Source: Clostridia bacterium (lineage in GTDB: Bacteria > Bacillota > Clostridia > Oscillospirales > CAG-272). From it: a DNA stretch of 33,075 nucleotides. Positions 5,481 to 32,787 of this stretch are shown in pieces. Where the stretch lies: positions 1 through 33,075 of the forward strand of contig JAGBEE010000041.1 in assembly GCA_017937135.1 (NCBI GenBank). The letters are read 5' to 3'. Numbering within the stretch: position 1 is the first letter of the stretch; the number at the start of each line of letters is the position of its first letter. A program made the position numbers and the translations under genes. Below the pieces are notes generated by a model that did not search any database, was not told the DNA's origin, and was given only the letters and a program-made list of their open reading frames with translations.

Positions 5481-8400
5481 ATGGCTTTACATCAATTGTA
5501 ACGCTATTATTCTTTATGTTAAGTCTTTTAAGCTTTTTCTCGCTAAGATTACCAATATAAGCCTCATTTACATCAAAGCCGAAGCTTACTAATGCTCTTG
5601 TGTGAGAATTTTTAGCCTCATAAAGACGAATGATGGTCTCATCTGAATATTCAGCCTCTTTAATAGTCTCTATTATTACATTGTCAGAGGAAACGCTAAC
5701 CAATGAATATTCACTTGGCAAGGCTCCCGTGCCAGTAGCTTTAACAGCAGTCATTGGCAGATTCAAATCATACGCATATTTAACAGTATCACAAGAAGCA
5801 AGCGCATTTTTGTGAGGATAAATAGAGTATGTAAATTCGTGAATACCAATATCGTTTACGTGGTCTGGATAGTTATCAGGGTTCATAGCTGACTTAATAA
5901 GAGTAAGTCGCATATCAGAGCCGTGAATATCGTGTCCATACTTGCAGTTATTAAGAATACTTACGCCATAATTACCCTCAGAAAGATCTGCAAACTTATG
6001 TCCGCAAACCTCAAATTTAGCGTGGTCCCAGGAGGTATTAAAGTGGGTAGGACGCTCAGTAGTACCAAACTGAATTTCATAGCTTGCCTTATCTGCGTTT
6101 ATATCAACAGGGAAGGAAACCTTTAAAATTTGCTTTTTCTCGCGCCAATCGACCTTAGTCTCAAAATCAATTTTCGGCATATCCTCATAGAACCAAGCAA
6201 TTTGACAAATTTCACTATCAAAGTGCTTCTTTTTATACTTAATACCGGTTCTTGACCCGTCAACGATAACCTCGGCACATAACACATTCATAATAGGATA
6301 TTCCTTGTCGTTTGAAGAGCGCTGAAGCTCCCAAGCAGGATAGTTATCAGGGTAGTCCTCGAATGCAATAAGCTTATTTGCTAAACAGCCCTTCTTAATA
6401 ACCTCACGGTGATTTTTCTTATCGTAAATAGAAACGATATTGTAATTTTCATCAAACTTTACGGTAAAGTATTTTGTAAATACGCTTCTGCCCTTAACCT
6501 CGATTGAGTTTTTTGTATCTGTATTCTTTATAACCTTATAGCCCTTACCGGGAACATCCTTTACAAAAACACTCTTGCCATCAATTTGTACAACAGAGGA
6601 ATTTTTAAAGGAATGTGGGTTAAATACAACATATCCATCCTCGCACACATTTGAAGCGACGTAGTCAAATGCGTTATTTCTGTGCTTGCTTGTGAAATCT
6701 CTTATTTCTTGATAATCTCTATCGCTTCTTTCATAAACCTCAGGAATTGAAGAGCCGGGGATAATATCGTGGAATTGGTTAGTGAGAAGCGTTTCCCACA
6801 TATTGTGTAGCTCCTTTTTAGGGAATTTACTAACCTTTAATTTGTCAAGCATTACACAAAGCGCCTCTGTGTCAAGAAGCAAAAATTCACATTGTCTGTT
6901 GTTTTTCTTATTTTTAGCAATAGATGTATATGTTCCTCTATGGAATTCAAGATACAATTCGCCCTGCCAAGAGGGAAGCAATTCAGGATTTTTCTGAATT
7001 TTCTTTTCAAGATTATTCAAAAAATCACCTGCAAAGCCAATTTTCGACTGTGCAACCTCAGGCACACCTGCGCTTGTACGCTTTAATACCTCAAGCATAT
7101 GGTCGGTAGGGCCACCGCCACCATCGCCAAAGCCGAATGTAACTAAAGCTTCATTTGTAAGCGCCTTTTGCTGATACCTGTTCCAGCTACCATCAATGAA
7201 TGAAAAATCAGTTGGAGGACAGTAGGAACAGCCTCTTTCGGGCACGCGTCCCTTCTTTTCCTCTTGCGCCGTCATAAAATATGTATTGATGCACTCACCA
7301 TCAATGCCCTTCCAGCTAAATATGTCATAAGGCATTGTGTTAGTATCGTTCCAGCTAATTTTCGAGGTAACAAACCAGTCAACCTCGCTCTTTTTAAGAA
7401 TTTGTGGAAGAGCAGCAGCGTAGCCAAAAACGTCAGGTAACCACAAAACCCTGCTTTCCACACCAAACTCATCACGGAAGAAGTTTTTGCCGTATTGAAC
7501 CTGTCTTACCAAGCTTTCACCACTTGAAAGGTTGCAGTCAGCCTCAACCCACATAGCGCCCTCAACCTCCCATCTTCCAGCCTTAATCATAGCCTTGATT
7601 TGCTCGTAAAGCTCGGGGGACTCCTCCTTAACCATCTTGTAAAGAACAGCCTGTGAGGACATAAACTTATATTCTGGGTATCTCTTCATAAGCTCAATAA
7701 CAGTAGAGAAGGAGCGTTGTACCTTTTCTCTTGTTTGCTCTAAGGACCAAAGCCAAGCTACGTCAATATGTGTGTGACCGATACAAATTGACTTTACATC
7801 TTGACTTTTACAGTACTTGCCATAAAATTCCTTTTGTAAAAGCTCATTTGCCAAGGAAACAGATGAATAAAATTTATCGCTTGGCATCCTTAGCATATAA
7901 ATTTCTTTTGCAGCCTTTTCCAAAATAGCCACTGTATTTTGATATGAATAAGAATTTTCATCTAAAAAATCAACAAGCTGAAATGGCACAGCCATATCGT
8001 AATAAAGCTTTTTAACAGCTTGATTTTCAACCACCATATTAACGTCAAGACGCAAATTTTGTCTCCAATACTCCATACCAGAATAAGCATAGAGAATAAC
8101 GTCATAGCTTTCCTTGCCACTAACATAAAAATAAGTATGGTTGGTATCAAGACCCTGCTTTATTTTGCCATCAACATATACAATAAATTGAGGGTTAGTT
8201 GCATCCCAACCACCAAGACCGGTATCAACGGTAACCTTTATGTCCTTTCCTAACATATCATTAGGAACATTTAAGGAAAAATGGAACCAAACGTGCTTAT
8301 CGCGCTCGTATCCCCAATTCATTCCCTTTAAAAATGGCTCAAAATCGCTTGTATCAGGTAAAGACGAGCCAACCTTGTAATCGCAATTTTTATATGTGAT

Positions 8401-8493
8401 ATTTTCAACAGGAACAGATTTTTCAACTATAAATTTGCTAAGCTCATTTAATACAACTCGCAAATTACGTACAGATTCATTTAAAGGCTTCAT
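5452..8493 (-). CDS. Alpha-mannosidase, glycoside hydrolase family 38
   Basis: 1013-residue enzyme with no signal peptide, so probably cytoplasmic; it removes alpha-linked mannose from oligosaccharides. An N-terminal beta domain (about 35-155) precedes the catalytic (beta/alpha)7 domain with the GH38 zinc motif IGHTHIDVAWLW (about 238-249), then WVEADCNLSSGESLVRQ, and the nucleophile Asp in WLPDVFGYAAALPQIL (about 354). A mid domain with LLTNQFHDIIPGSSI (zinc/active-site His-Asp pair) and long C-terminal beta domains follow, as expected for a full-length bacterial GH38 of about 1000 residues. Start: ATG 8493 is preceded by AAGGAG at 6 bases; the upstream TTG at 8511 lacks this. The gene stands alone between its own promoter and terminator, and ends in a duplicated segment (see the 5330-5480 repeat). 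Confidence 0.95.
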   Translation of the reverse strand: MKPLNESVRNLRVVLNELSKFIVEKSVPVENITYKNCDYKVGSSLPDTSDFEPFLKGMNWGYERDKHVWFHFSLNVPNDMLGKDIKVTVDTGLGGWDATNPQFIVYVDGKIKQGLDTNHTYFYVSGKESYDVILYAYSGMEYWRQNLRLDVNMVVENQAVKKLYYDMAVPFQLVDFLDENSYSYQNTVAILEKAAKEIYMLRMPSDKFYSSVSLANELLQKEFYGKYCKSQDVKSICIGHTHIDVAWLWSLEQTREKVQRSFSTVIELMKRYPEYKFMSSQAVLYKMVKEESPELYEQIKAMIKAGRWEVEGAMWVEADCNLSSGESLVRQVQYGKNFFRDEFGVESRVLWLPDVFGYAAALPQILKKSEVDWFVTSKISWNDTNTMPYDIFSWKGIDGECINTYFMTAQEEKKGRVPERGCSYCPPTDFSFIDGSWNRYQQKALTNEALVTFGFGDGGGGPTDHMLEVLKRTSAGVPEVAQSKIGFAGDFLNNLEKKIQKNPELLPSWQGELYLEFHRGTYTSIAKNKKNNRQCEFLLLDTEALCVMLDKLKVSKFPKKELHNMWETLLTNQFHDIIPGSSIPEVYERSDRDYQEIRDFTSKHRNNAFDYVASNVCEDGYVVFNPHSFKNSSVVQIDGKSVFVKDVPGKGYKVIKNTDTKNSIEVKGRSVFTKYFTVKFDENYNIVSIYDKKNHREVIKKGCLANKLIAFEDYPDNYPAWELQRSSNDKEYPIMNVLCAEVIVDGSRTGIKYKKKHFDSEICQIAWFYEDMPKIDFETKVDWREKKQILKVSFPVDINADKASYEIQFGTTERPTHFNTSWDHAKFEVCGHKFADLSEGNYGVSILNNCKYGHDIHGSDMRLTLIKSAMNPDNYPDHVNDIGIHEFTYSIYPHKNALASCDTVKYAYDLNLPMTAVKATGTGALPSEYSLVSVSSDNVIIETIKEAEYSDETIIRLYEAKNSHTRALVSFGFDVNEAYIGNLSEKKLKRLNIKNNSVTIDVKPFEIITLIVK

Positions 8494-8524
8494 AAAAAAC
8501 TCCTTTTGCAAAAATTACACGTAA

Positions 8525-8553
8525 ATTATACCATACATACCATTAAAAAGCAA
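8525..8553 (-). promoter_or_regulatory. Sigma-A-type promoter of the alpha-mannosidase
   Basis: On the minus strand: -35 TTGCTT (8548-8553), 17-base spacer, perfect -10 TATAAT (8525-8530), about 30 bases before the start codon. No clear operator or catabolite (cre) site was identified. Confidence 0.75.
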
Positions 8554-8560
8554 TAAATAT

Positions 8561-8589
8561 TTGATTTTTTGTCGGTTGTGTGCTATGAT
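8561..8589 (+). promoter_or_regulatory. Sigma-A-type promoter of the tcdA-like gene
   Basis: -35 TTGATT (8561-8566), 17-base spacer, -10 TATGAT (8584-8589). It is divergent from the mannosidase promoter, with only 7 bases between the two -35 boxes. Confidence 0.7.
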
Positions 8590-8619
8590 ATCTATATGAA
8601 ACTAAAAGGGAGGGATATT

Positions 8620-9309
8620 ATGCAGGAGCTTTCACGCACAAAAATGCTTTTTGGCGAGGAAAATGTCGAAAAGCTAATTAATAAAAAAGTAATAGTATTC
8701 GGTGTTGGCGGAGTAGGTGGCTACGTATGCGAATCACTTGCAAGGAGTGGCATAGGACAAATTGACATTGTAGATAACGACACAGTATCCCTGTCTAATA
8801 TCAACAGACAAATAATAGCCTTGCACTCAACCGTTGGCAAAAGCAAGGTAGAGGTAATGAGGGAAAGAATGCTTGATATCAACCCAAGCATTAAGGTTGA
8901 AACGTATAACACATTCTTTTTGCCAGAAAACAGTTGTGAATTTGATTTTTCAAAATATGATTACGTAATAGACGCTATTGATACAGTAAAGGGCAAGGTG
9001 GAGCTTGCGGTAATATGCGATAGCTTGAATATACCAATAATAGCCTCAATGGGTGCAGGAAATAAAATAGACCCACTCGGCTTTAAGGTTGCTGATATTT
9101 ATAAAACAAGCGTATGTCCACTTGCAAGAGTAATGCGCGCTGAGCTTAAAAAGCGTGGTGTAAAAAAGCTAAAAACAGTTTATTCCGAGGAAAAGCCATA
9201 CAAGCAAGCTGCTAACGAGAGGGAGCGAATCCCAGCATCGTGCTCGTTTATCCCGTCAGTTGTAGGGCTTATAATCTCAGCTGAGGTAATAAAGGATTTA
9301 ATGAAATAA
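8620..9309 (+). CDS. tcdA: tRNA threonylcarbamoyladenosine dehydratase (TcdA/CsdL, ThiF-E1 fold)
   Basis: 229-residue E1-like ATP-binding protein. TcdA converts t6A37 of ANN-decoding tRNAs to the cyclic form ct6A, using ATP to activate the carboxylate. Visible features are the Rossmann motif FGVGGVGGYV (27-36), the acidic DIVDND strand end, SLSNINRQ (57-64) with the ATP-contacting Asn/Arg, YVIDAIDTVKGK, and the C-terminal stretch SCSFIPSVVGL common to TcdA proteins. The start at ATG 8620 is fixed by GGGAGGG 6-7 bases upstream; earlier in-frame codons overlap the promoter. Length is close to the usual 240-270. The only other sensible reading is another member of the HesA/MoeB/ThiF family, but the overall pattern favours TcdA. 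It ends at a terminator shared with the opposing gene. Confidence 0.88.
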   Translation: MQELSRTKMLFGEENVEKLINKKVIVFGVGGVGGYVCESLARSGIGQIDIVDNDTVSLSNINRQIIALHSTVGKSKVEVMRERMLDINPSIKVETYNTFFLPENSCEFDFSKYDYVIDAIDTVKGKVELAVICDSLNIPIIASMGAGNKIDPLGFKVADIYKTSVCPLARVMRAELKKRGVKKLKTVYSEEKPYKQAANERERIPASCSFIPSVVGLIISAEVIKDLMK

Positions 9310-9339
9310 AAAATCAAGCTCAACCGAGCTTGATTTTTT
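9308..9339. terminator. Bidirectional terminator between convergent genes
   Basis: A perfect 14-bp stem (arms AAAAAATCAAGCTC and GAGCTTGATTTTTT) with loop AACC, A-tract and T-tract on either side. It abuts both stop codons (9309 and 9340-9342). Confidence 0.9.
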
Positions 9340-10632
9340 TTATATTCCAATATCCTTAGTGCACTGTCCTTGAATCCAGCTAATATCATAAACCTTTTCT
9401 CCATAGGTTAAAAATTCCTTAGCGACACCAGCCATATGCAAGCTGTGTAGCTCGCTTGGAGAAACAAAGCCTAAAAATTTATTAGTATCATATTTATCCC
9501 AATTATAAAAGTCTGTAACAATATATTTTAGCTTTGCACTATATACAGTTTTTCCGTTTCTTTGATAAACTGAAATATCTGTAATTTCAATAGATGAAAA
9601 ATATGAGCCAAGAGCATATTTGTAATCTCCACTCAAATTATGATAAAGGCTTTCCTTTGCTTGATACAGCTCGTAGCGCTTACCACATCTTGCAATCGAT
9701 TCACAGGCTCTTAAGGCCTTGTCAATGTCGAAATTTCTGTTATAGAGGGCAGTTTCGTCCTTCATAAACTCATCAATATTAAAATTATAACTATTACCTG
9801 ATCCACCTAAAAAATGTGATAACAGCCTTGATGCATTTTCACACGATAAAACCTTGCCACCGGTAATTATTAAATTGGCGCGCTTGATAATGTCGTCAAT
9901 TGTATCCTGTGACAATTTTTCAGTATTATAATCATTTGTCGAATTTTCTTGTTGCTTTAATCTGTCAGCGCTTGGCTCAGCTTGTACATTGCCAAAGCCG
10001 TTTATTTCCTCTGGTTCAGTTACAAAATCGTTATAGCATACAAATTTAAGCTCATCATACTTCGTTTTTATTCCGTCTGGCTGAATATAATAAGTATTAT
10101 CGTTAATAATCATATATGCGCAAAATAAAAACTCAATATTTGTGTGCTTTTCCTCAATTTGAGAAACATATGAGTCAATAACATTAAGACCTATGCCATT
10201 GTAGTTAAAAAGCGTTATACTATTATTTACTACATCACCCTTTGAATTCAGTGGTAATTTGCCCCTTAACTGCTCCTTAGTTGCGATAATTGTGCCAATG
10301 TATATTTTTGAGTCATTAAATTCCATAATAGCTTTAATTATATCACCGTGAATATAATAACTTGTTCCAATTACGCTACTGCTTATTGAATATCCAAGAG
10401 GCTCAATTAGCTGGTATAGCTCTTGCGAGTGCCTTGTGCCACATTTTTTACATTCTAAATCTACCGTGCCACCATATATAATATTTTCAGAGCTTAAATC
10501 TATTACCTTGTATTCGCATTCACAGCTTTTGTCAAGCTCAATTGCTGGCTCCGTGTCAATTGCAAGAGCATATATTGCAAGCAAAAGCATAAGCATACAA
10601 GCAAAAAATAAAGATAGCTTAAATTTTTTCAT
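9340..10632 (-). CDS. Secreted protein of unknown function with Cys-pair motif and possible toxin-like C-terminal module
   Basis: 430 residues; not recognised with certainty. Residues 1-24 are a signal peptide (MKKFKLSLFFACMLMLLLAI). Two close Cys pairs, CEC (37-39) and CKKC (61-64), could bind a metal. Residues 200-260 look like a low-complexity linker. The C-terminal 120 residues (about 300-423) form a separate module with YALGSYFSSIEI, LKYIVTDFYNWDKYD, SPSELHSLHMAG and EFLTYGEKVYDISW. From memory this order of motifs resembles C-terminal modules seen on Firmicutes polymorphic-toxin and Rhs-type proteins, but I cannot verify it and no catalytic residues are assigned. It is a single-gene unit with its own promoter. 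An SD-like AGGTTAGGT precedes ATG 10632. Confidence 0.75.
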   Translation of the reverse strand: MKKFKLSLFFACMLMLLLAIYALAIDTEPAIELDKSCECEYKVIDLSSENIIYGGTVDLECKKCGTRHSQELYQLIEPLGYSISSSVIGTSYYIHGDIIKAIMEFNDSKIYIGTIIATKEQLRGKLPLNSKGDVVNNSITLFNYNGIGLNVIDSYVSQIEEKHTNIEFLFCAYMIINDNTYYIQPDGIKTKYDELKFVCYNDFVTEPEEINGFGNVQAEPSADRLKQQENSTNDYNTEKLSQDTIDDIIKRANLIITGGKVLSCENASRLLSHFLGGSGNSYNFNIDEFMKDETALYNRNFDIDKALRACESIARCGKRYELYQAKESLYHNLSGDYKYALGSYFSSIEITDISVYQRNGKTVYSAKLKYIVTDFYNWDKYDTNKFLGFVSPSELHSLHMAGVAKEFLTYGEKVYDISWIQGQCTKDIGI

Positions 10633-13084: not shown

Positions 13085-13903
13085 ATGAAACTTGGTACAA
13101 TGGTAAATCTCGACCAAAACGTAGTCGAGAAAATCAAAGATGTAAAAAAGTACGGTCTTGAATCATTTCAGCTTTGCGCTTGGAACTTTGATTTTATGAC
13201 TGATGAGTATGTAGAAAAGATTCTTTCAGCAACAAAAGAAACAGGACTTGAAATAAGTGCTGTATGGTGTGGCTGGGAAGGTGCGGCAACATGGGATTTT
13301 GTAAGAGGACCCATGACTCTTGGTATCGTTCCTACATATTTTAGAGAAAAAAGAGTTGCAAATCTTAAAAAAGGCTCCGATTTTACAAGGAAGCTTGGCG
13401 TTGTAGATATGGTAACTCATATGGGCTTTATTCCAGAAAACCCCAATACTGACGAATATCGTTGCGTAGTTAACACAATAAGAGAGCTTGCAGAATATTG
13501 CAAGGCTAACGGACAATATTTGCTTTTCGAAACAGGACAAGAAACACCGATTACATTAAAAAGAACAATTTTAACAGTTGGAACAGGAAACCTTGGAATC
13601 AATCTTGACCCGGCAAATCTTCTTTTGTATGGTAAGGCAAATCCTTGTGATGCAGTAGATATTTTTGGAGATTATGTAAGGGGAGTACACGGTAAGGACG
13701 GAGAATATCCTACTGACCCGGCTTACTTGGGAGTTGAAAAGAGAATAGGTGACGGACGTGCAAACTACCCCGTGCTTATTAAAAAGCTCAAGGAGCACGG
13801 CTACAATGGCTCTATAACCATTGAACGCGAAATTGATGGCGATAAGCAAGTAGAGGATATACTTTACGCGAAAAAATTCTTGGAGGACATAATAAATGAA
13901 TAA
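13085..13903 (+). CDS. Sugar phosphate isomerase/epimerase-like TIM-barrel protein (AP_endonuc_2 family)
   Basis: 272-residue TIM barrel of the xylose-isomerase-like superfamily, which interconverts ketoses or inositol derivatives with a divalent metal. The four metal-site residues can be followed along the barrel: Glu in YLLFETGQE, Asp in GINLDPANLLLYG, His in VRGVHGKDGEYP and Glu in GSITIEREI. Substrate is not deducible. SD GAGGTG lies 6 bases before ATG. The last 8 bases overlap the next gene, a Gfo/Idh/MocA oxidoreductase; such pairs often act in sequence on one rare sugar or inositol. The direct overlap makes translational coupling likely. Confidence 0.9.
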   Translation: MKLGTMVNLDQNVVEKIKDVKKYGLESFQLCAWNFDFMTDEYVEKILSATKETGLEISAVWCGWEGAATWDFVRGPMTLGIVPTYFREKRVANLKKGSDFTRKLGVVDMVTHMGFIPENPNTDEYRCVVNTIRELAEYCKANGQYLLFETGQETPITLKRTILTVGTGNLGINLDPANLLLYGKANPCDAVDIFGDYVRGVHGKDGEYPTDPAYLGVEKRIGDGRANYPVLIKKLKEHGYNGSITIEREIDGDKQVEDILYAKKFLEDIINE

Positions 13904-14879
13904 GCTTAGAATAGGACTTGTAGGCGTTGGCGGAATGGGTGGATGCCATTTTGACAACTATATGGATGTTGACGGTGCTGAGTTAGTTGCAGTATGTGAC
14001 GTTAGAAAAGAGGTTGCTGAGAAAAAGGTTGGCAACAGAAAAATTAATATTTATACAGACCTTGGAAAAATGCTCAAAAAAGAAGAGCTTGATATGGTGG
14101 ACATTTGCACTCCAAGCTATATGCATATGGATATGGTAATTAAGCTTCTCAAAAAAGGATATCACGTTCTTTGCGAAAAGCCAATGACCTTGAATAATGG
14201 TGACTGCAAAAAAATCATAAAGACCTTGAAAAATACAGATAAAAACTTTATGGTTGCTCACGTAGTAAGATTTATGGCTCCATACAAATATTTGAAGAGC
14301 GTAATTGATTCAAATGAGCTTGGTAGTCTTATAAGACTTGATATGAAGCGTATTTCATCTATCCCAACGTGGAGCTGGGAGGACTGGATGAGAAAGGAAA
14401 AGCTCAGTGGTGGAGTAGTAACAGACCTTTCTATTCACGACCTCGACTTTGTACAAAGCATATTTGGTATGCCTAAAAAGGTTCAAGCAGTTCATTATAA
14501 GATGAAGAACAATAACGACTGCATTGTAAGTAATTTAATTTATGATAACCTTAGCGTATCCTGTGAGGGAACATGGTATAATACAGATATTCCATTCCAA
14601 GCTAAATTCTTGGCAGTATTCCAAAACGGATATGTTCAATTTGATAACGGAAAGCTCGTTAAAAATGGCAAGGAAATTACTCTTGGCTCATATAAAAGAG
14701 ATGGCGAGGATATTGGTATAAACGTTGGAAATGACAATGGTTATTTCAATGAAATACAATACTTCATCGACTGTGCAAACGAGGGCAGAAAGCCTGACTT
14801 TATAACACCAGAAAGCTCAGCAAAAAGCGTAGAGCTTGCAGACCTAATTAAGAAAAAGGCAGTAGTAGTTAACAAATAA
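13896..14879 (+). CDS. Gfo/Idh/MocA-family NAD(P)-dependent oxidoreductase
   Basis: 327 residues. N-terminal Rossmann domain with GLVGVGGMGGCHFDNY (about 7-22) for dinucleotide binding, DICTPSYMHMDM, and the family's EKP motif in HVLCEKPMTLNNG (Lys takes part in catalysis). The C-terminal alpha/beta sheet domain has GGVVTDLSIHDLDF, with the His that usually completes the active site. It probably oxidises or epimerises a sugar or inositol through a keto intermediate. ATG 13896 lies inside the end of the previous gene, with GGAGG about 12 bases upstream. A hairpin terminator follows, but the next gene starts only 54 bases on. Confidence 0.93.
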   Translation: MNKLRIGLVGVGGMGGCHFDNYMDVDGAELVAVCDVRKEVAEKKVGNRKINIYTDLGKMLKKEELDMVDICTPSYMHMDMVIKLLKKGYHVLCEKPMTLNNGDCKKIIKTLKNTDKNFMVAHVVRFMAPYKYLKSVIDSNELGSLIRLDMKRISSIPTWSWEDWMRKEKLSGGVVTDLSIHDLDFVQSIFGMPKKVQAVHYKMKNNNDCIVSNLIYDNLSVSCEGTWYNTDIPFQAKFLAVFQNGYVQFDNGKLVKNGKEITLGSYKRDGEDIGINVGNDNGYFNEIQYFIDCANEGRKPDFITPESSAKSVELADLIKKKAVVVNK

Positions 14880-14881
14880 AT

Positions 14882-14913
14882 AAAAGAACTCAAGGCACAC
14901 CTTGGGTTCTTTT
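14882..14913 (+). terminator. Intrinsic terminator/attenuator between oxidoreductase and solute-binding protein genes
   Basis: Stem AAAAGAACTCAAG / CTTGGGTTCTTTT (one T-G pair) around a 6-base loop. The following gene starts 20 bases downstream with no promoter in between, so partial read-through is likely. Confidence 0.75.
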
Positions 14914-14932
14914 GTTAAATAGGAGAAGAATA

Positions 14933-16732
14933 ATGAAAAGAGTATTATCAATAATTTTGTTTTTTGTTTTTGCTTTGAGCTCGCTTTTGTCCTGCGGACA
15001 AACAAAGGAACCAATAGAATCAAATAGCGAAGCAAGTGGTGGAGAAAGTACTGATACGGACCAAACACAAAGTTCAACACCCACACCTGATACTATCAAT
15101 TGTAATCACAATGTTGTAAAAACAGTAAATGGAAAAGAGCCTACCTGTATAGAAACAGGACTAACTGATGGAAAAAAGTGTGCTACCTGTGGGAAAATCT
15201 TGGAAAAGAGACAGATAATACCAACAATTTCACACATATATGTAAACAACTATTGCAAAATGTGTGGAATAGAATATGTCCCCACGCTTGAGGAGTTAAT
15301 AAATGGAAACGAAAAGGTAGACACAAAGCAGGTTATATTAAATGATTGGGAAGGCAAAACACTAAATGTTCTTGCAACCAACTGGTATGGGGCGAAAGGA
15401 ATGGTTAATGGTTGGTCAGAGCCAGACCTCACAGTTAATGGCTATGATAATGATGGTACATCTGTATGGGGTACAACCATCAACAACGCTATTCTAAAAA
15501 GAAAAGAATTCGTCAAGGAAACATATGGAGTTGAGCTTAAGTTTATTGTATCTTATAAAGAAGCAACAATGTCAAACCAATTATTCGAGGCAAATAAGCC
15601 TGAGGCAATAGAAAAGTATCACATCGCTATGCCTCGTATTTTTGAGGCTCAACAACTCGTTCAAAACCAAGTAGTATATGATTTATCCAATAGCAATTTT
15701 ATTGATTTTTCAAAACCATACTACAACCAAATAGCTCACGAGGCGTTTACGGTAGCAGGACACACCTTCTTTGCAGCAGGTGATTTCTCATTCCTTGACG
15801 AGCTTACATCATATGTAATTTATTACAATATGGCAATTAGTGATAATGTTGAAAATTTCCCAGACCTTTATCAAACAGTTAAGGAAGGTAAATGGACCAT
15901 TTCCGAAATGGCAAAATGGGCAGCAACCGTTATCGATGATAATGGTGCAAATGCTGGCATATGGGAGGATGACGATACATACGGCTTTGGTGCAACAAGC
16001 CTTACACACTTTTTCCAAACAAGTGGAATAACACAAATCGGAGTAAATAACTCATCCTCTAACCCTTCCGACTATCAATACAAATTATCTCTTAACGAGG
16101 ACCCAAGCTTAATAGAACAGCTTGTTAATCAGCTTAGCACGCTTCTTGATAATGAAAACAGCTGGTCAAGAACAAACTGGATGGGGAGCTCTCGCGCAAT
16201 GGAAGAATCCTTTACAAACGGAAAACTTTTGTTCTACAACGAAATAATGAAAAATATATATAAATTGCCTGCGCAGAGCGAAAGCTTCAAATTGGGCGTT
16301 CTCCCAATGCCAAAATTAAACGAAAGCGAAAGCTACTACACACCATGTGCTAATCAGTCTACAGTAATGTGCATTCCAAAATGCACACCTGACAGGAATA
16401 TGTCAGAATATTTCTTAGATGTTCTTTCCCACACAGGTCAAGACTATGTTATGAAGGCATATTATAGTGACCTCAAAACAAGGATTTACCAAGGAACAGA
16501 AGAGGGCAGAACACCTAATGACAGTATAGAAATCATTAAGAATTACATATTGAATAATATTATGTACGACCTAGGATACATCAATAATACGTTGACATTT
16601 GTTCAAAACGATACCATAGCAGACATATTAAATGCCGATGCGTTCTCAGAGTCCTATAATGAATATGTAGGTTATGCGCTTGAAACGGTTTCAAAATGGA
16701 ACAATTGGTATGATGCATATAAAGAACAATAA
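14933..16732 (+). CDS. ABC transporter extracellular solute-binding lipoprotein with Cys/His stalk
   Basis: 599 residues. Type II signal peptide with lipobox LSSLLSC (Cys21 lipidated), then a Ser/Thr-rich linker. An unusual Cys/His segment (about 52-115) follows, with CNHNVV, PTCIETG, KCATCGKIL, and NYCKMCG, two zinc-ribbon-like repeats. The remainder is a large periplasmic-binding fold (DWEGKTLNVLATNWYG; YDLSNSNFIDFSKPYYN; FFAAGDFSFLDELTSYVIYYN; KLGVLPMPKLN) typical of family-1 sugar-binding proteins. SD AGGAG with ATG 14933 fixes the start. No permease or ATPase gene is in the window, so it must pair with a transporter elsewhere. Context with the two sugar enzymes upstream suggests a carbohydrate ligand. 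Confidence 0.88.
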   Translation: MKRVLSIILFFVFALSSLLSCGQTKEPIESNSEASGGESTDTDQTQSSTPTPDTINCNHNVVKTVNGKEPTCIETGLTDGKKCATCGKILEKRQIIPTISHIYVNNYCKMCGIEYVPTLEELINGNEKVDTKQVILNDWEGKTLNVLATNWYGAKGMVNGWSEPDLTVNGYDNDGTSVWGTTINNAILKRKEFVKETYGVELKFIVSYKEATMSNQLFEANKPEAIEKYHIAMPRIFEAQQLVQNQVVYDLSNSNFIDFSKPYYNQIAHEAFTVAGHTFFAAGDFSFLDELTSYVIYYNMAISDNVENFPDLYQTVKEGKWTISEMAKWAATVIDDNGANAGIWEDDDTYGFGATSLTHFFQTSGITQIGVNNSSSNPSDYQYKLSLNEDPSLIEQLVNQLSTLLDNENSWSRTNWMGSSRAMEESFTNGKLLFYNEIMKNIYKLPAQSESFKLGVLPMPKLNESESYYTPCANQSTVMCIPKCTPDRNMSEYFLDVLSHTGQDYVMKAYYSDLKTRIYQGTEEGRTPNDSIEIIKNYILNNIMYDLGYINNTLTFVQNDTIADILNADAFSESYNEYVGYALETVSKWNNWYDAYKEQ

Positions 16733-16751
16733 AACAAAGTATAACAAAACC

Positions 16752-16778
16752 AAAGGCCCAAGAAAACTTGGGCTTTTT
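16752..16778 (+). terminator. Intrinsic terminator of the solute-binding protein gene
   Basis: Stem AAAGGCCCAAG / CTTGGGCTTTTT with AAAA loop and trailing T residues, 20 bases after the stop. Confidence 0.88.
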
Positions 16779-16793
16779 CGTTGCTTTTTATTG

Positions 16794-16822
16794 TTGACAA
16801 AAGAATAGTTATACTATATAAT
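16794..16822 (+). promoter_or_regulatory. Consensus sigma-A promoter of the GTPase operon
   Basis: Perfect TTGACA (16794-16799), 17-base spacer and perfect TATAAT (16817-16822), ending 43 bases before the GTPase start. It is the strongest promoter match in the window and suggests constitutive expression. Confidence 0.85.
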
Positions 16823-16865
16823 ATTTGTATTGTATGTTATAATATTTTGAACAAAGGAGAAGTAA

Positions 16866-18281
16866 ATGGAGAAACAGCCAGCATCAAAAAACTACTTTTT
16901 TGACAAGGGATATAGAGACGTTGGAAATATAATTAAAAAAGCTTGGAAAAGCGCATATGCTCCTTTAAAAGAAGAGGTAGGTAGAATAGGTGATATATTT
17001 GAATCAAATATCACATGTGGAATAATTACATCAATAGCCGACATAATACTATTTCCTGTAGTAACCGTAATATATATGGCGGCAACAATTATTTTTTCAG
17101 CCTTGCTTATATGCTCATTTGCGATAGTAGGTTTTTTCGCATATCTATTTTATTCAATATTGTATTTAACAGACACGTTGTTTTGTGTTTTTAAAAGAAT
17201 TTCGAGTAGCTGCTCAAAATGTCAGTCTAAATTTCTATTGCCCGTATATGAGTGCCCTCATTGTGGAGAAAAGCATACCAAGCTTCGCCCAAGTAGCTAT
17301 GGAATACTAAAAAGAAAATGCTTATGTGGCTATAAATTACCAACAACATTTTTCAATGGCAGACAAAAGTTAGATGCAAAATGTCCAGTCTGTAATGAAA
17401 ATATAAAGGACGGAGGACATCATAGCGAGGTTACTATTCCAATTGTAGGTGGACGAAGTGCAGGAAAAACATGCTTTATAACTCAGGCTATAAGCGCACT
17501 TGGTAATGAAGCATACAAATTAGGATTAGACTACAAATATTCACCAGTAGATAGTGATGATGACTACATACAAACTGTAAATAGTATGAATGCAGGCTAT
17601 ACACCTGATTCGTCAAATAACCTTCGTTTAAGATATTATCAGTTTTATCTAAGTCCAAAGGAAGCAAAGATAAAGAATCTTATTTCACTATGTGATATAG
17701 CAGGAGAGGTTTATTCTAACAGAGAAAATCTTAATGACCAAATTGGCTACAAATATGCAAACGCATTTTTGATGATTGTTGACCCACTTAGTGTAAGTGG
17801 ATATGCAAAAGAGATGCAAGCACGGATAAATTTGGTTGAATATGGTTATAGCAATGACCGTTTAGATGAAATTTTAAGCTTACTTACTGCAACACTTGAA
17901 AATATGTTTTGTATATCAAGTAGCGATATGCTAAAAACAACCGTTGCTGTGGTATTTAGTAAGGGAGATATCCCCGGACTTGATGAAAAGATAGGAAAAA
18001 GTGCCATAAAAAAATATATGAAGGATAACAACGTAAGCAACAAATACGACGCGCAAAACGCAGTATGCGAGGAGTTTTTGAAGAATTACGGAGAAGCGAA
18101 CTTCTTAAACACCTTGAAATCAAGATATAAAAATGTTCAATTTTTTACCTCATCAGCTCTTGGTCATAATCAAAATGGTAAGGCTTTTGTATCAGACGGA
18201 GTACAGGACCCAATTTTATGGCTTGTTGATAGCGCTTGCCCATCTATAAATTTAAAGGATAGATGGGGCAAAAAGCTTTAA
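16866..18281 (+). CDS. Membrane-anchored zinc-ribbon P-loop GTPase-like protein
   Basis: 471 residues. Order: amphipathic N-terminus (1-50), hydrophobic stretch for two or three membrane passes (about 52-108), two zinc-ribbon-like units (CSKC 116-119 with CPHCG 130-134; KCLCG 151-155 with CPVC 173-176), then a P-loop domain. Walker A is GGRSAGKT (195-202), the switch II/Walker B equivalent is LCDIAGE (275-281), and a G4-like FSKGD is at 364-368. This layout resembles the GTPase families (double-GTPase type) found in predicted bacterial conflict systems, but I cannot place it in a named family. Nucleotide binding is well supported and GTP preference is inferred from the G4-like motif. SD AAAGGAGAAG precedes ATG. 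It heads a three-gene unit with two membrane proteins. Confidence 0.85.
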   Translation: MEKQPASKNYFFDKGYRDVGNIIKKAWKSAYAPLKEEVGRIGDIFESNITCGIITSIADIILFPVVTVIYMAATIIFSALLICSFAIVGFFAYLFYSILYLTDTLFCVFKRISSSCSKCQSKFLLPVYECPHCGEKHTKLRPSSYGILKRKCLCGYKLPTTFFNGRQKLDAKCPVCNENIKDGGHHSEVTIPIVGGRSAGKTCFITQAISALGNEAYKLGLDYKYSPVDSDDDYIQTVNSMNAGYTPDSSNNLRLRYYQFYLSPKEAKIKNLISLCDIAGEVYSNRENLNDQIGYKYANAFLMIVDPLSVSGYAKEMQARINLVEYGYSNDRLDEILSLLTATLENMFCISSSDMLKTTVAVVFSKGDIPGLDEKIGKSAIKKYMKDNNVSNKYDAQNAVCEEFLKNYGEANFLNTLKSRYKNVQFFTSSALGHNQNGKAFVSDGVQDPILWLVDSACPSINLKDRWGKKL

Positions 18282-18327
18282 TTTCAAAAATTAAACTTAA
18301 AAATGATTTAATAAAGGAAACAAACTA

Positions 18328-19266
18328 ATGATACTTTTAATTATATTGGTGTGTGTCTTTGGTCTGGCTGCTGGCGGCTTTAACTATGTTTACGCAATAG
18401 TTACTAGCAGGTCATATTACACCCAAGAGGATGACAGATTTGCTCTGTTCATAGGACTTTCGGCTGTGGACGTGGCTATGCTTGTATTTGAAATAATACT
18501 TATCAAAAATCCAAATGCGATATTTACAGGCATTCACTGGGTATGGATTCTTGTTATTGGAATATTATTATTTGCCGGAACGGTTGCATTAGGAATATAC
18601 CTGTGTGTTACTGAGGATATTTTTTGGACGTTTGAGCGCGCAAAGTGGTATATGGGAGCTATTCAGGTAGCAGTAGGCATACTTGTTTTAATTCTTATGA
18701 TAGTAGGCTTAAGCACAGCAAAGGGAAAAACCTACGAGGTTTCCTCGGTTGATGATTTGGAAATCTTAGATAATCTCCCTGGTACAGAGGAGCCTTATAT
18801 CATACAAATAACATCCGACCTTGATTTTGAAGGCATAGAGCCAAACGAAAAATATGGAACAAGCTATAATACCTACATAATTGAGGGAAATGGACACACT
18901 ATAAGCAATATCAAATACGAAAAAACCTTAGAGGAAGAATATACAGCGTTCTTCGAAATGAACACAGCAAAGAAAGATACATACAACTCATCAAAAATCA
19001 AAAATCTTAATTTTGACAACTGTGAGTTTTATATAACCCCAAATTTCTACAATGAAGAAAAGCACGAGGGCAAAAAATGTCATTTTTATCTTTTTGGTGA
19101 CGAAACAAAATCTCCTGTTGAGCTACAAAACGTCATAATAACACGTTCAATTGTGTATGCACTAAAAGGAGAGGAGAATCCTCTTAGCGTAAGTAACTCG
19201 GTAATAGGTGATATATATCCGACAGATGGCGAAAATATAGATTTAAGAGTGATAAGGGAGGAATGA
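18328..19266 (+). CDS. Four-pass membrane protein with C-terminal beta-helix-like outside domain
   Basis: 312 residues, family unknown to me. Four predicted transmembrane helices (about 1-26, 39-60, 70-93, 108-129) are followed by a soluble domain of 180 residues. The domain opens with KGKTYEVSSVDDLEILDN and has SDLDFEGI and IIEGNGHTISNIKYE. That pattern is typical of GLUG-type or right-handed beta-helix repeats of secreted proteins, so the domain is probably outside the cell. SD AAAGGAAAC lies 7 bases before ATG 18328. The next gene starts 1 base after its stop, indicating tight coupling. Confidence 0.8.
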   Translation: MILLIILVCVFGLAAGGFNYVYAIVTSRSYYTQEDDRFALFIGLSAVDVAMLVFEIILIKNPNAIFTGIHWVWILVIGILLFAGTVALGIYLCVTEDIFWTFERAKWYMGAIQVAVGILVLILMIVGLSTAKGKTYEVSSVDDLEILDNLPGTEEPYIIQITSDLDFEGIEPNEKYGTSYNTYIIEGNGHTISNIKYEKTLEEEYTAFFEMNTAKKDTYNSSKIKNLNFDNCEFYITPNFYNEEKHEGKKCHFYLFGDETKSPVELQNVIITRSIVYALKGEENPLSVSNSVIGDIYPTDGENIDLRVIREE

Positions 19267-19267
19267 T

Positions 19268-20365
19268 ATGGTATATCTTATTCCAGCATTTTCAATAGGA
19301 ATCGTTTCTGCTATCGCTCTTAGTAGCTATATGCACGTTGTTTTATCGTTTTTGATTTTTAGTTACGCCTCTTTATGTGTTATGACGTTTATAAAAACAT
19401 TGTACGATGGTAATAATGTTATTTTAACAGGAGATTATGTAGGGGATATAGTCAGTGAGGAAACTTGGTTTTTATTCCCATTAATGATACCAATATTTGT
19501 TGCATCAGTGGTAGCAGCACCTGTTATGTGCTTATACAATTATATTGAGGATGAGTATGAAACGACATCGGTATTTGTTGGCATCATTTCTATTTTGTCA
19601 GTAATGCTTTTGTTTCTTCTTGTTCTGTTCATAAGTCCACAAACTGCATATGCCCTTATTCCATGCGGAGGGATAATCCCCTTATATATCGTTCTTAGCG
19701 CAGTGGTTGTGGTACTAACATCAGTAGCACTACACGAGGAGGGCTTTTCAACCCTAACAACAGTACTTTTCTATGTGGGCGCAGGACTTATGATAGTTCT
19801 TATGATAATTGGCATTAATGTCTCAATGAATAGAACCTACTATATTTCCGATGCAAATGATATGAGAGGCTTCGCAAACTCCCCAACAAGCTATGAAACA
19901 GTATTCATTGTAGAAAATGACATCGATTTTGAAGACGAGGATACAAGCTGGTTCGGAGGAATGGAGAGCTTTGAAGGAATATTTGAGGGAAATGGTTACA
20001 CATTTTCGAATATTAGCTTTGACGGATATTACAATGGAGAAGGAATGGGACTTGTAGCCTATAACGAAGGAGTTATTCGCAACATTAACTTTAAAGATTG
20101 CTCATTTTCTGTAAAAAATGATATAGAAGGCTCTTCCTTGAATTTTGGAATCATTTGTTCTGTAAATAACGGAAAGATTTCCAATTGCAATATTATAGAT
20201 TGTCAAGCCAAGGGATATAAATATTATAGTAGCTCATCCTCACAAACCTCATTAAAGGTCGGCTATAATTATGGCACCTTAGAAAACGTTGAGGTAACCT
20301 ATACAAGAGAAGAGGACCCTGAATTTTATAATACAGATGCATATAAATGGTTTAAAATCAATTAA
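19268..20365 (+). CDS. Polytopic membrane protein with C-terminal beta-helix-like domain, related to the preceding product
   Basis: 365 residues, family unknown. Five or six hydrophobic helices between 1 and 183. The outside domain (about 187-365) has the same opening as its neighbour: YYISDANDMRGFAN, ENDIDFED, IFEGNGYTFSNISFDG. Further beta-helix rungs follow (VAYNEGVIRNINFKDCSF; NGKISNCNIIDC; NYGTLENVEVTY). Strong SD GGGAGGAATG at 5 bases overlaps the end of the previous gene. It closes the operon before a large hairpin terminator. The two products probably arose by duplication of the beta-helix part, while their membrane parts differ. Confidence 0.8.
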   Translation: MVYLIPAFSIGIVSAIALSSYMHVVLSFLIFSYASLCVMTFIKTLYDGNNVILTGDYVGDIVSEETWFLFPLMIPIFVASVVAAPVMCLYNYIEDEYETTSVFVGIISILSVMLLFLLVLFISPQTAYALIPCGGIIPLYIVLSAVVVVLTSVALHEEGFSTLTTVLFYVGAGLMIVLMIIGINVSMNRTYYISDANDMRGFANSPTSYETVFIVENDIDFEDEDTSWFGGMESFEGIFEGNGYTFSNISFDGYYNGEGMGLVAYNEGVIRNINFKDCSFSVKNDIEGSSLNFGIICSVNNGKISNCNIIDCQAKGYKYYSSSSSQTSLKVGYNYGTLENVEVTYTREEDPEFYNTDAYKWFKIN

Positions 20366-20425
20366 AAAAGGTGAAACATTATGCGTGTTATCCGTCAAGG
20401 AGAACACGCATAGTTCACCTTTTTA
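20364..20425. terminator. Large hairpin terminator between convergent GTPase operon and spoVA operon
   Basis: Two stacked stems: AAAAAGGTGAA/TTCACCTTTTT (outer) and TATGCGTGTT/AACACGCATA (20380-20389 with 20403-20412), followed by T-rich DNA on the plus strand. It overlaps the last bases of spoVAE (stop at 20423). Confidence 0.85.
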
Positions 20426-20791
20426 TTTTTTTGGCTTGCTTGAAAATACTAAGGAAACTAAAAATCCAAAGCACAGCGCTCCTGCAATTCCACCAGCTGT
20501 TTGTCCAAGACCGCCTGTTAATGCACCCAAAAGACCGTCCTTGTTTACAGCCTCTCTTACACCCTTTGCAATAGTATAGCCAAAGCCCGTTAGTGGTACA
20601 GTAGCTCCTGCACCGGCAAAGCTAACAATATATTCATAAACACCTATACCTGTTAATAAAACACCAGCGCATACATACAAAACAAGAATTCTCGCAGGAG
20701 TGAGCTTTGTTTTGTCAATAAGGACCTGAGCAATTACGCACAAAAGGCCACCGACAATAAATGCCCATAAATAATTTAAAAATATATCCAT
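20423..20791 (-). CDS. spoVAE: Stage V sporulation protein AE
   Basis: 122-residue membrane protein with four hydrophobic segments and the family motifs LLTGIGVYEYIVSFAGAGA and TVPLTGFGYTIAKGVREAV. Together with SpoVAC and SpoVAD it forms the channel complex that moves dipicolinic acid into the developing spore and out during germination. It lies 2 bases after spoVAD on the same strand. Length matches known SpoVAE proteins (about 115-125). Third and last gene of the operon. Confidence 0.95.
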   Translation of the reverse strand: MDIFLNYLWAFIVGGLLCVIAQVLIDKTKLTPARILVLYVCAGVLLTGIGVYEYIVSFAGAGATVPLTGFGYTIAKGVREAVNKDGLLGALTGGLGQTAGGIAGALCFGFLVSLVFSSKPKK

Positions 20792-30800: not shown

Positions 30801-31385
30801 ATGACGAATTATAATCTATATATAAATGATTCAATAAAATTAACACAAAAAAAGCAAATATCAGATTACATTTTAGAAATATTAGGAGACCTTTTTATAA
30901 TTTTTTTAATAGTGGTTTCAATTTTTATCCATAAAGTTCTTATTAGTGAAAAAATTTATGGCGAAAAATTTTATGTAGTATTTTCGCTATATATAATTAT
31001 ACCGTATTTTTTTCTGCATTCTATAATTGACAAAATAGATTATAAGAAATATTGTTTCACATTAAGCAATAAAGGGATAAATTTAACCAATTTTAAAGGG
31101 AAGTATTTTATTCCTTATGAAGAAGTGAAATCTAGTGGACTATTACATGAAGTAAAATATGGAGTTAAATATACATATTATATTTCTGTTATATACTTCT
31201 CCACAGAACAGCTTACAGATAAAGAACTTAAAAAACGAATGCGTGATACTGCAGCGATAAATGGTTCACGCAGATCGACTAAAAAACTAATATACATATC
31301 TTTACCCAAAGAAGAAGCGATAGAATTGCATAAAACAATGCAGAATTGGCTAAAGAACAATGTTAGCGATAATATTCTCAAATAA
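30801..31385 (+). CDS. Two-pass membrane protein with PH-like soluble domain, possible immunity-type protein
   Basis: 194 residues, family not recognised. Two hydrophobic helices (about 28-47 and 58-78). A soluble domain (about 83-190) with KYCFTLSNKGINLTNFKG, YFIPYEEVKSSGLL and IYFSTEQ resembles the bacterial PH-like domain of YcxB-type proteins. ATG 30801 has GAGGT 9 bases upstream, the SD lying in Rhs-derived DNA. The same layout recurs in the next gene. Small membrane proteins with such domains often follow Rhs or other polymorphic toxins as immunity proteins; here no toxin tip is present, so this is inference. Confidence 0.7.
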   Translation: MTNYNLYINDSIKLTQKKQISDYILEILGDLFIIFLIVVSIFIHKVLISEKIYGEKFYVVFSLYIIIPYFFLHSIIDKIDYKKYCFTLSNKGINLTNFKGKYFIPYEEVKSSGLLHEVKYGVKYTYYISVIYFSTEQLTDKELKKRMRDTAAINGSRRSTKKLIYISLPKEEAIELHKTMQNWLKNNVSDNILK

Positions 31386-31405
31386 TTGAGATTGTCTTAA
31401 ATGAT

Positions 31406-31421
31406 TTCAATTAACCGTCCC
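31406..31421 (+). repeat. 16-base dispersed repeat next to GC-rich DNA, first copy
   Basis: TTCAATTAACCGTCCC occurs identically at 32815-32830. Here it continues as CTGCCC, akin to the GTCCCCTGTC arms at 32171-32209. Both copies lie right after an immunity-like gene. Confidence 0.7.
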
Positions 31422-31496
31422 CTGCCCATACAAAGACACACCACCGCCTCTTGTCAACATAAAATATAATTGGTAATTGGGAGAACTAAAGGAATA

Positions 31497-32153
31497 ATGT
31501 TTGAATGTACATATAACGAAAATGGCATTTTGAAAACAGTAAAATATAAAGATAGTTATATAAAACATACAATCAAAACAATATTTATTATATATGTTGT
31601 TATGATTATACTGATCTTGGCTTTATTAATATTGTATTACAAGATTGGTTTTAGTATATATATACCAATTTTTTGTTCAGCTGTATTTTTGTTGGGTAGT
31701 GGTGTTTTTTGGATAATATACTTTGCACAAAAAAGATTTTCCTTAACATTTGAAGAAGACCAACTGTGTATAAAAGGGGGCCAAAAAAATGTGATTATTC
31801 CGTATTCAAGTGTAAAAACATACGGGGTTTTATATAGGGTTGGACCGAATAATTTAATAAGCGTGGTAATGGGTGTGTCAAACTCCTATTATTATTACTC
31901 AGACAGTAAAAGTACAGTTTTCTTTTCAACAAACCAAGGTAACAATCTTTCTAAATTATCACGCACGGTGATTACTGATATAGGACGACACCATGGTTTT
32001 TTCAAAGATAGTATATTTTATATATCTGATTATTCTAACTCGCTTGTTTTAAAACAATGCGTAAAAGCGATAAAATATCATACACACAAATACTCACCTG
32101 AAGTTATAAATATGGATAGAAAAGAATTAAAAAACAAAGCTAAGAAAGGTTGA
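31497..32153 (+). CDS. Two-pass membrane protein with PH-like domain, related in layout to the 30801 product
   Basis: 218 residues, family not recognised. Two helices (about 28-50 and 55-80), then a domain starting FSLTFEEDQLCIKGGQK with VIIPYSSVKTYGVLYRV and TVFFSTNQ. The order (helix pair, strand, IPYxxVKxxGxL, FFSTxQ) repeats that of the 30801 product, so the two are probably distant paralogues. Start chosen at ATG 31497, preceded by AAAGGA; an upstream TTG at 31470 lacks an SD. The Lys-rich C-terminus (KELKNKAKKG) is probably cytoplasmic. Confidence 0.7.
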   Translation: MFECTYNENGILKTVKYKDSYIKHTIKTIFIIYVVMIILILALLILYYKIGFSIYIPIFCSAVFLLGSGVFWIIYFAQKRFSLTFEEDQLCIKGGQKNVIIPYSSVKTYGVLYRVGPNNLISVVMGVSNSYYYYSDSKSTVFFSTNQGNNLSKLSRTVITDIGRHHGFFKDSIFYISDYSNSLVLKQCVKAIKYHTHKYSPEVINMDRKELKNKAKKG

Positions 32154-32170
32154 GTTACTAAATGAGACAC

Positions 32171-32209
32171 AAGACAGGGGACGAAAGACACACCCCCGTC
32201 CCCTGTCTT
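32171..32209. repeat. Palindromic GC-rich repeat (perfect 13-bp arms)
   Basis: Arms AAGACAGGGGACG (32171-32183) and CGTCCCCTGTCTT (32197-32209) around a 13-base loop. GGGGACG/CGTCCCC motifs of this kind are common in palindromes linked to IS200-like (RAYT) transposases; no transposase gene is present here. Confidence 0.75.
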
Positions 32210-32313
32210 CCTCAAATGTCATCAAAAATGAGAATAATTAGAGATAGGAATTATGAATTTAACACATTTTGTTTATTTTCATTTGAATTAATAAGAGAAA
32301 GGTTAGGTAGGTA

Positions 32314-32787
32314 ATGGAAATTAACTATTCTGGCATATGGAATCGAGTAGCGGTTTTAGGTGGCTCTATATTTATGTTAGGAATAATAATCTTATTTATT
32401 ACGTTATTCTTTCACTTTAAAGATGGAAATCCTTCAAATGATAAAAATTATAAGAAGGAGCTAAAAGCAAGTATAGTAATAAGTATACTTATCCTTACCA
32501 CAGCATTGTTATTCTCCTCTTTTTATATTTATAAAGCAATAAATCCAGATGTGCAAACATTTATAGGAGTATTTGAATATGAAGAAAAAGCATCTAGACG
32601 AAGCCTTGAAATTGGAATGTATAAGTATATGTTTTCTTTAGGAAATGAGGAAAACAAAAGAGCTTTATATTTAAACTCATCTGCAATGGAAGAGATTTTT
32701 CCTGAAGGCTTTGAAGGACAGGAAACATATAAAATATGGTATGAGTATGAAACCAAAATAATATTAGGCGTTGAAAAGATAGAATGA
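32314..32787 (+). CDS. Small two-pass membrane protein in the Rhs-tail array
   Basis: 157 residues, not recognised. Two hydrophobic helices (about 10-33 and 50-73) followed by an 80-residue soluble tail (FIGVFEYEEKASRRS; LYLNSSAMEEIFPEGF) with no motif I can assign. ATG 32314 is preceded by AAAGG and AGGTAGG. It is the third small membrane protein between the two Rhs tail fragments; by position it is another candidate immunity protein, but it does not share the PH-like signature. Confidence 0.65.
   Translation: MEINYSGIWNRVAVLGGSIFMLGIIILFITLFFHFKDGNPSNDKNYKKELKASIVISILILTTALLFSSFYIYKAINPDVQTFIGVFEYEEKASRRSLEIGMYKYMFSLGNEENKRALYLNSSAMEEIFPEGFEGQETYKIWYEYETKIILGVEKIE

Follow-up and report, generated by a model that had tools for sequence, protein, structure and literature searches.

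A membrane DO-GTPase2 beside two sister GLUG-like membrane proteins in an Oscillospirales genome: a possible extra input arm of a resident GAP1-N2 system

The DNA analysed here is a 33,075-nucleotide stretch of contig JAGBEE010000041.1 (the window; all coordinates are window positions) from Clostridia bacterium (CAG-272, Oscillospirales), a spore-forming bacterium. It carries a trio of adjacent genes that encode a membrane-anchored zinc-ribbon GTPase and two mutually related membrane proteins. The GTPase belongs to the DO-GTPase2 family of GAP1-N2 systems, and the same genome holds such a system on a second contig, C28. We tentatively propose that the trio is an extra sensory (input) arm that feeds the resident GAP1-N2/HSP70-theme system of C28, a reading that we regard as possible and somewhat short of probable. 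The trio is not the unrecognized system that an earlier sequence-only reading took it for. It is rather an unusual pairing, seen in a single genome, of a recognized GTPase with two proteins whose build is unmatched in the genomes searched.

The operon layout is firm. Three open reading frames (ORFs) of 471, 312 and 365 amino acids lie on the + strand, as do all trio features given below, at 16866-18281 (gene 1), 18328-19266 (gene 2) and 19268-20365 (gene 3), with intergenic gaps of 46 and 1 bases. A sigma-70/sigma-A type promoter (TTGACA-17-TATAAT, 16794-16822) precedes gene 1 and agrees with the consensus at 12 of 12 positions, and a terminator-like hairpin found by the terminator scan (16752-16777) separates this promoter from the preceding gene. 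The region 16600-20600 contains 16 promoter-like sites in total, not above the number in shuffled sequence (mean 17.1), and the 15 other sites match just 9 or 10 positions. Downstream of gene 3, a hairpin (20366-20423; folding energy -30.2 kcal/mol) leads into a T-rich stretch; its stem is interrupted by bulges, and it is absent from the output of the terminator scan, which models a simple stem only. Each gene is preceded by a ribosome-binding-like sequence, as read by eye. The promoter, the gene spacing and the large terminator were all part of the sequence-only reading and were borne out, and the trio is apparently co-transcribed, as judged from these signals.

Gene 1 is, by its sequence, firmly a member of a recognized family, the membrane, zinc-ribbon DO-GTPase2 of GAP1-N2 type. 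Its residues 190-404 match PF19993 (DO-GTPase2) with 52.9 bits (E = 5.2e-14), about twice the cut-off of 27, and neither NCBIfam nor PADLOC returned a family over its cut-off. The GTPase domain (17424-18278) contains a P-loop, GGRSAGKT (residue 195; 17448-17471), a Walker B motif with the conserved glutamate of DO-GTPase2 (DxAGE), DIAGE (residue 277; 17694-17708), and a G4-like motif, FSKGD (residue 364; 17955-17969). Ahead of it lie a conserved N-terminal peptide of the KQPAxxxYFFxxGY type, identified from alignments (16866-16925), a hydrophobic segment that is perhaps a helical hairpin (17025-17186, bounds read by eye) and a zinc-ribbon region (17211-17393) with three CxxC pairs at residues 116, 130 and 173. 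N-terminal zinc ribbons together with an N-terminal transmembrane (TM) segment place gene 1 in the TM subtype. The DO-GTPase family was named, and placed with GAP1 in predicted conflict systems, by Kaur, Burroughs, Iyer and Aravind (2020; PMC7159879), whose account of these systems already describes the type with N-terminal zinc ribbons and a TM segment. Thus, the membrane anchor, zinc ribbons and P-loop motifs noticed earlier were upheld, as was the suspected kinship with zinc-ribbon GTPases of predicted conflict systems. A match of gene 1 to some established but unrelated family of defined role would have counted against the sequence-only reading, and no such match was obtained.

In the GAP1-N2 type, as presented in that account, the GTPase carries two N-terminal zinc ribbons, and one of two GTPases is a TM protein with four N-terminal helices and one C-terminal helix. 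Fewer helices are predicted for gene 1 than for the TM subtype described there. Hydropathy yields a single hydrophobic segment at residue 65, and the low-confidence structure model (mean pLDDT 45.2, against 46.4 for the gene 3 model) has long helices at residues 42-80 and 86-115; no C-terminal helix is predicted. The TM copy inside the GAP1 operon of C28 likewise has one hydrophobic segment on the same scale.

The genome encodes three PF19993 matches, namely, gene 1 and two proteins on C28. The C28 genes encode, in order, an HSP70-vWA protein cut by the contig end, a zinc-ribbon/FN3-like protein, a soluble DO-GTPase2, a GAP1-N2/GAP1-M protein, a TM DO-GTPase2 and a transglutaminase-like protein, which is homologous to the Transglut_core gene of another genome, G044. 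Three of the domain scores lie close to or below their cut-offs (fn3 17.0 bits against 25, below; GAP1-M 23.7 against 24, just below; soluble GTPase 27.6 against 27, just above); the naming of these components rests on gene order and on homologous operons. The arrangement corresponds to the second GAP1-N2 theme in the description of Kaur et al. (PMC7159879), in which HSP70 accompanies an FN3 protein with DnaJ or TPR, and gene 1 is the counterpart of the TM zinc-ribbon DO-GTPase2 found in these systems. GAP1-N2 has one match in this genome (93.7% complete), on C28, and none of the window ORFs matches GAP1 or the FN3-like protein of C28. Gene 1 therefore has no private GAP1 partner. The trio differs from GAP1-N2 systems in that two multi-TM GLUG-like proteins stand beside its TM GTPase, whereas no GAP1, FN3, soluble GTPase or HSP70 gene adjoins.

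Relatives of gene 1 are rare and keep different company. Matches were found in 2 of 145 relatives, at least 3 of 394 genomes of the order, at least 6 of 391 of the class and at least 7 of 395 of the family; these counts include the window's own genome, the samples overlap, and the best four first-look candidates per genome were scored in the order, class and family surveys. The GTPase was not found in any other same-genus genome sampled in the relatives and family surveys, and none of the 14 same-genus genomes tested gave a GAP1-N2 match. Nine other genomes (G044, G412, G633, G680, G699, G995, G1011, G1037 and G1122) encode clear TM-type relatives, and in eight of these nine the TM-type gene shares an operon with GAP1 and a soluble DO-GTPase. 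The ninth, a divergent relative in G633, is near HSP70-like genes in a genome where no GAP1-N2 was found. Twelve genomes, the window's own among them, gave a GTPase match of any kind; GAP1-N2 was found in nine of these and not in G145, G572 and G633. A scan of the named collection added three further loci, L001 from Thermoguttaceae, with three tandem TM types at 5765-10574 and a soluble-type gene, and two that match only around the zinc ribbons. A search of the 12 GTPase-bearing genomes found no relative of genes 2 and 3 beside a TM-type GTPase in the other genomes. The idea of a conserved three-gene system was thus not sustained by the neighborhood survey, which recovered neither this adjacency nor, as described below, the build of genes 2 and 3.

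These operons have further features of their own. Three tandem TM DO-GTPase genes also occur in the same family at L014:8622-13370 (G044). G1037 has an intact DO-GTPase copy and, next to it, a degenerate additional fragment interrupted by in-frame stops (L053, about 9914-10324). In GAP1-N2 operons of this lineage (L053:3408-5954, L040:3536-6142, L054:3205-4419), genes for TraG/VirD4/TrwB-type ATPases are found upstream of the soluble DO-GTPase (TrwB_AAD_bind, 130.6 bits in L053 and 144.1 in L040); such ATPases are not mentioned in the two sections on these systems in Kaur et al. (2020; PMC7159879). In L053 and L040 a second gene follows the ATPase gene; it is also present in L054, and its copies are mutually homologous with no Pfam match over the cut-off. 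Downstream of the TM GTPase, transglutaminase-like homologues are found in L013, L042, L054, L055 and L040, a protein of 90-117 amino acids is common to L042, L054 and L055, and a multi-TM protein of about 300 amino acids is common to L040, L054 and L055.

Where did gene 1 come from? In a tree of 29 DO-GTPases, it is sister to the C28 TM copy with support of 100/100; the program flagged long branches elsewhere in the tree. Given this sister placement, gene 1 is most likely a lineage-specific duplicate of the C28 membrane GTPase. Its branch is the longer of the two (0.67 versus 0.23). The two copies have diverged unevenly. The first 20 residues are 60% identical, the zinc ribbon 68% and the GTPase domain 69%, but the membrane region (residues 21-110) 22%.

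Uneven divergence of this kind is seen in other genomes as well. We compared regions in the 18 pairs with the highest GTPase identity, and the contrast that follows rests on few pairs and carries no statistical test. Identity in the TM and GTPase parts of within-genome pairs is 44% and 92% in G680, 16% and 75% for copies 2 and 3 of G044, and 20% and 56% for copies 1 and 2 of G044. Copies in one genome are thus far less alike in the membrane segment than in the GTPase. Between-genome pairs gave 55% and 67%, 37% and 63%, 36% and 60%, and 46% and 59%, in addition to 29% and 56% and 28% and 52%. Pairs that include G044 copy 3 or the window copy have a TM identity of 14-22% whatever the genome compared. 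In the tandem TM DO-GTPases of G680 (L042:9025-12186), nucleotide identity steps from 44% at residues 41-80 to 79% at residues 81-120 and to 83-96% beyond. Such a step is consistent with recombination of the two copies or with a swapped membrane half. Four-fold sites are mostly identical in the G680 pair. Gene conversion between the window and C28 copies was also considered; their four-fold sites are not clearly alike.

Genes 2 and 3 are diverged sister genes, as their sequences align with 27% identity over 223 amino acids (E = 7e-16) across both the helices and the C-terminal domain. Hydropathy predicts about four TM helices for gene 2 and about six for gene 3, and both products contain the motif EGNG.T.SNI. 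A 23-nucleotide direct repeat in the trio is the EGNG coding sequence of the two genes. The helices and the motif stand as first described from the letters, whereas the GLUG/beta-helix label attached to them falls below the Pfam cut-offs (Glug 13.1 bits against 20.5, E = 0.13; Pectate_lyase_5 13.6 against 24.3, E = 0.077). No family over the cut-off, pore-forming or enzymatic, was returned for genes 2 and 3 by Pfam, NCBIfam or PADLOC, and the PADLOC anti-phage models gave zero families for each trio protein. The label gains indirect support because a profile of the pair matches secreted surface-type proteins, some of which carry Glug.

The gene 3 query matched in 14 of 145 genomes, and the two-sequence profile of genes 2 and 3 matched in at least 34 of 395 family genomes, with the best five candidates per genome scored (own genome included in both). 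The profile also matched in 4 of the 12 GTPase-bearing genomes, own included, where the matches of the other genomes lie on contigs apart from the GTPase. All 41 entries from other genomes in the family survey start at model position 183 or later, i.e. at the last helix or beyond. A Pfam scan of eight matched surface-type proteins found Glug at or over the cut-off with collagen and Flg_new in two, PA14 in two and no family over the cut-off in four. At L121, the Glug stretch falls within the part matched by the profile. The model of gene 3 has a strand-rich C-terminus, and 5 of 12 Foldseek matches to this poor model are pectate lyases or a polygalacturonase, the best at E = 0.17 and none significant. 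Sequence searches of solved structures gave nothing at E < 0.1. We regard the C-terminal domain shared by genes 2 and 3 as probably GLUG/beta-helix-like and located outside the cell, as suggested by the likeness to secreted proteins of the same bacterial family; a resemblance of these domains to extracellular ones was also part of the sequence-only reading.

The likeness to these secreted GLUG-type surface proteins is confined to parts that match the C-terminal domain. Their covered stretches hold at most two hydrophobic segments, and the clustered helices that characterize genes 2 and 3 are absent. When the frames around all listed matches outside the trio were retested (41 + 15 + 4 = 60 places, a few duplicated), none of the 60 places had a group of at least three predicted helices in a 150-residue span, with 17 of the 60 frames leaving the fetched stretch upstream. 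The matched places have zero to two predicted helices in total, mostly one near the start. The multi-TM plus GLUG build was therefore not seen outside the window's genome among the genomes searched. The accessory TM proteins of other GAP1 operons were also considered as relatives of genes 2 and 3 and gave no significant BLAST match.

What might such a trio do? We suggest that gene 1 keeps cytoplasmic zinc-ribbon and GTPase parts compatible with a shared core, while its membrane segment may have been exchanged or may have diverged. Genes 2 and 3 would be dedicated membrane partners whose GLUG/beta-helix-like domains outside the cell bind an envelope or surface ligand, for which a phage, a foreign surface or damaged wall are candidates. 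The effect of a bound ligand would pass through the helices to gene 1 and change its nucleotide state or pairing. Gene 1 would then signal via the soluble DO-GTPase and GAP1 encoded by C28 to a shared chaperone/transglutaminase-like output. The retained G motifs, the presence of the resident system, the company of GAP1 and a soluble DO-GTPase that TM-type relatives keep in eight of nine other genomes, and the bracketing of the trio by one promoter and one terminator speak for such an input arm. The surface sensor coupled to an inside GTPase that the sequence-only reading offered as one possibility is thus kept, as an addition to the resident GAP1 system.

Several points weigh against this proposal. 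The contact of gene 1 with genes 2 and 3, and that of the trio with C28 products, are steps that we infer. The trio occurs in one genome only, so co-conservation cannot be shown. Charge counts for the positive-inside rule (4 versus 3 in gene 2, too few in gene 3) leave the topology of genes 2 and 3 unsettled, and the structure models of both gene 1 and gene 3 are poor, with no significant Foldseek match for that of gene 3. Low similarity of the membrane region is also seen in many between-genome pairs, and the long branch of gene 1 could reflect relaxed constraint.

As an alternative to a sensor role, genes 2 and 3 could form the effector side, with the GTPase upstream of them: once it is triggered, these variable membrane proteins would perturb the envelope or mediate adhesion, as has been proposed for the variable components of GAP1-N2 systems. 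TM-bearing variable components are described for GAP1-N2 systems by Kaur et al. (PMC7159879), unrelated small multi-TM proteins lie near the TM GTPase in other operons of the family, and genes 2 and 3 are lineage-restricted, as effectors often are. However, the absence of a pore-forming or enzymatic family over the cut-off does not favor this role, and an extracellular-type beta domain would suit binding more than killing. We therefore consider an effector role rather unlikely. A self-contained membrane device of three genes, independent of C28, in which the duplicated GTPase is re-used with new partners, is improbable. It would account for the trio's own promoter and terminator, its location on a contig separate from the GAP1 operon and the longer GTPase branch, and the divergent relative of G633 similarly resides in a genome with no GAP1-N2 match. 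However, the identity of 68-69% to the C28 copy has been kept in the zinc-ribbon and GTPase parts, not in the membrane part, and GAP1 is present with eight of the nine other TM-type relatives.

The three genes could also be chance neighbors, i.e. a stray GTPase duplicate in a variable part of the chromosome that happens to adjoin two genes for surface-type membrane proteins and shares no function with them. The genomic context offers something to this explanation. SpoVAD matches occur in 15 other same-genus genomes, and the spoVAD/spoVAE flank was compared in 10 of these 15 (families SpoVAD and GFO_IDH_MocA). In 6 of these 10 relatives, no other gene separates the oxidoreductase gene (window 13896-14879) from spoVAE. 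The other four hold different genes there: a protein like the window's leucine-rich-repeat protein in two, three ORFs in one (one SPFH, one zinc-ribbon-like below the cut-off and a third not scanned) and, in one, a 528-amino-acid ORF after the oxidoreductase gene followed by the contig end. In the window, the corresponding interval (14880-20422) contains a gene at 14912-16732 and the trio. This part of the chromosome is thus variable, and a trio seen once in such a spot could be accidental. However, gaps of 46 and 1 bases, a shared promoter and terminator, and the ribosome-binding-like sequence read ahead of each gene argue against accident, which we judge to be improbable as well.

If the input arm proposed here is real, DO-GTPase systems may act more generally as receptor hubs, in which one core of GAP1 and soluble GTPase serves several membrane GTPase paralogues with alike GTPase halves and swapped membrane halves, each with its own extracellular partner. 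We hold this extension to be doubtful. If it were true, the trio would reveal such private extracellular partners in the form of the twin GLUG-like proteins. A re-issued membrane GTPase with two probable extracellular partners, together with the contrast between GTPase and membrane parts in several genomes, points to membrane GTPases as exchangeable input arms and suggests that predicted infection-response systems can gain new ones. The trio provides a concrete three-protein set in which to seek the signal sensed by DO-GTPase/GAP1 systems. No bench test of these systems was found in the open-licence literature, with most subscription journals outside the scope of the search. A search for GLUG with GTPase, or GLUG with beta-helix adhesins, returned nothing relevant, and the main text of PMC7159879, its figures and supplements apart, contains none of the terms GLUG, beta-helix, pectate and right-handed. 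A later paper, PMC11237479, briefly mentions a DO-GTPase in PSP operons.

A mobile-element origin of the trio was considered and set aside. Gene 1 was unmatched in viral contigs, plasmids and phages, no tRNA and no Rfam match at gathering score were found, and no repeats flank the trio; scanning for transposase and integrase families covered part of the window ORFs. In base composition the trio differs little from the window and from C28.

Elsewhere in the window, three small predicted membrane proteins are encoded at 30801-32787, where the G+C content is 25-29% compared with 36% for the window; they were perhaps acquired, and the first of them has no Pfam match. At the opposite end, positions 505-2523 encode a BspA-type leucine-rich-repeat protein (LRR_5, 400 bits).

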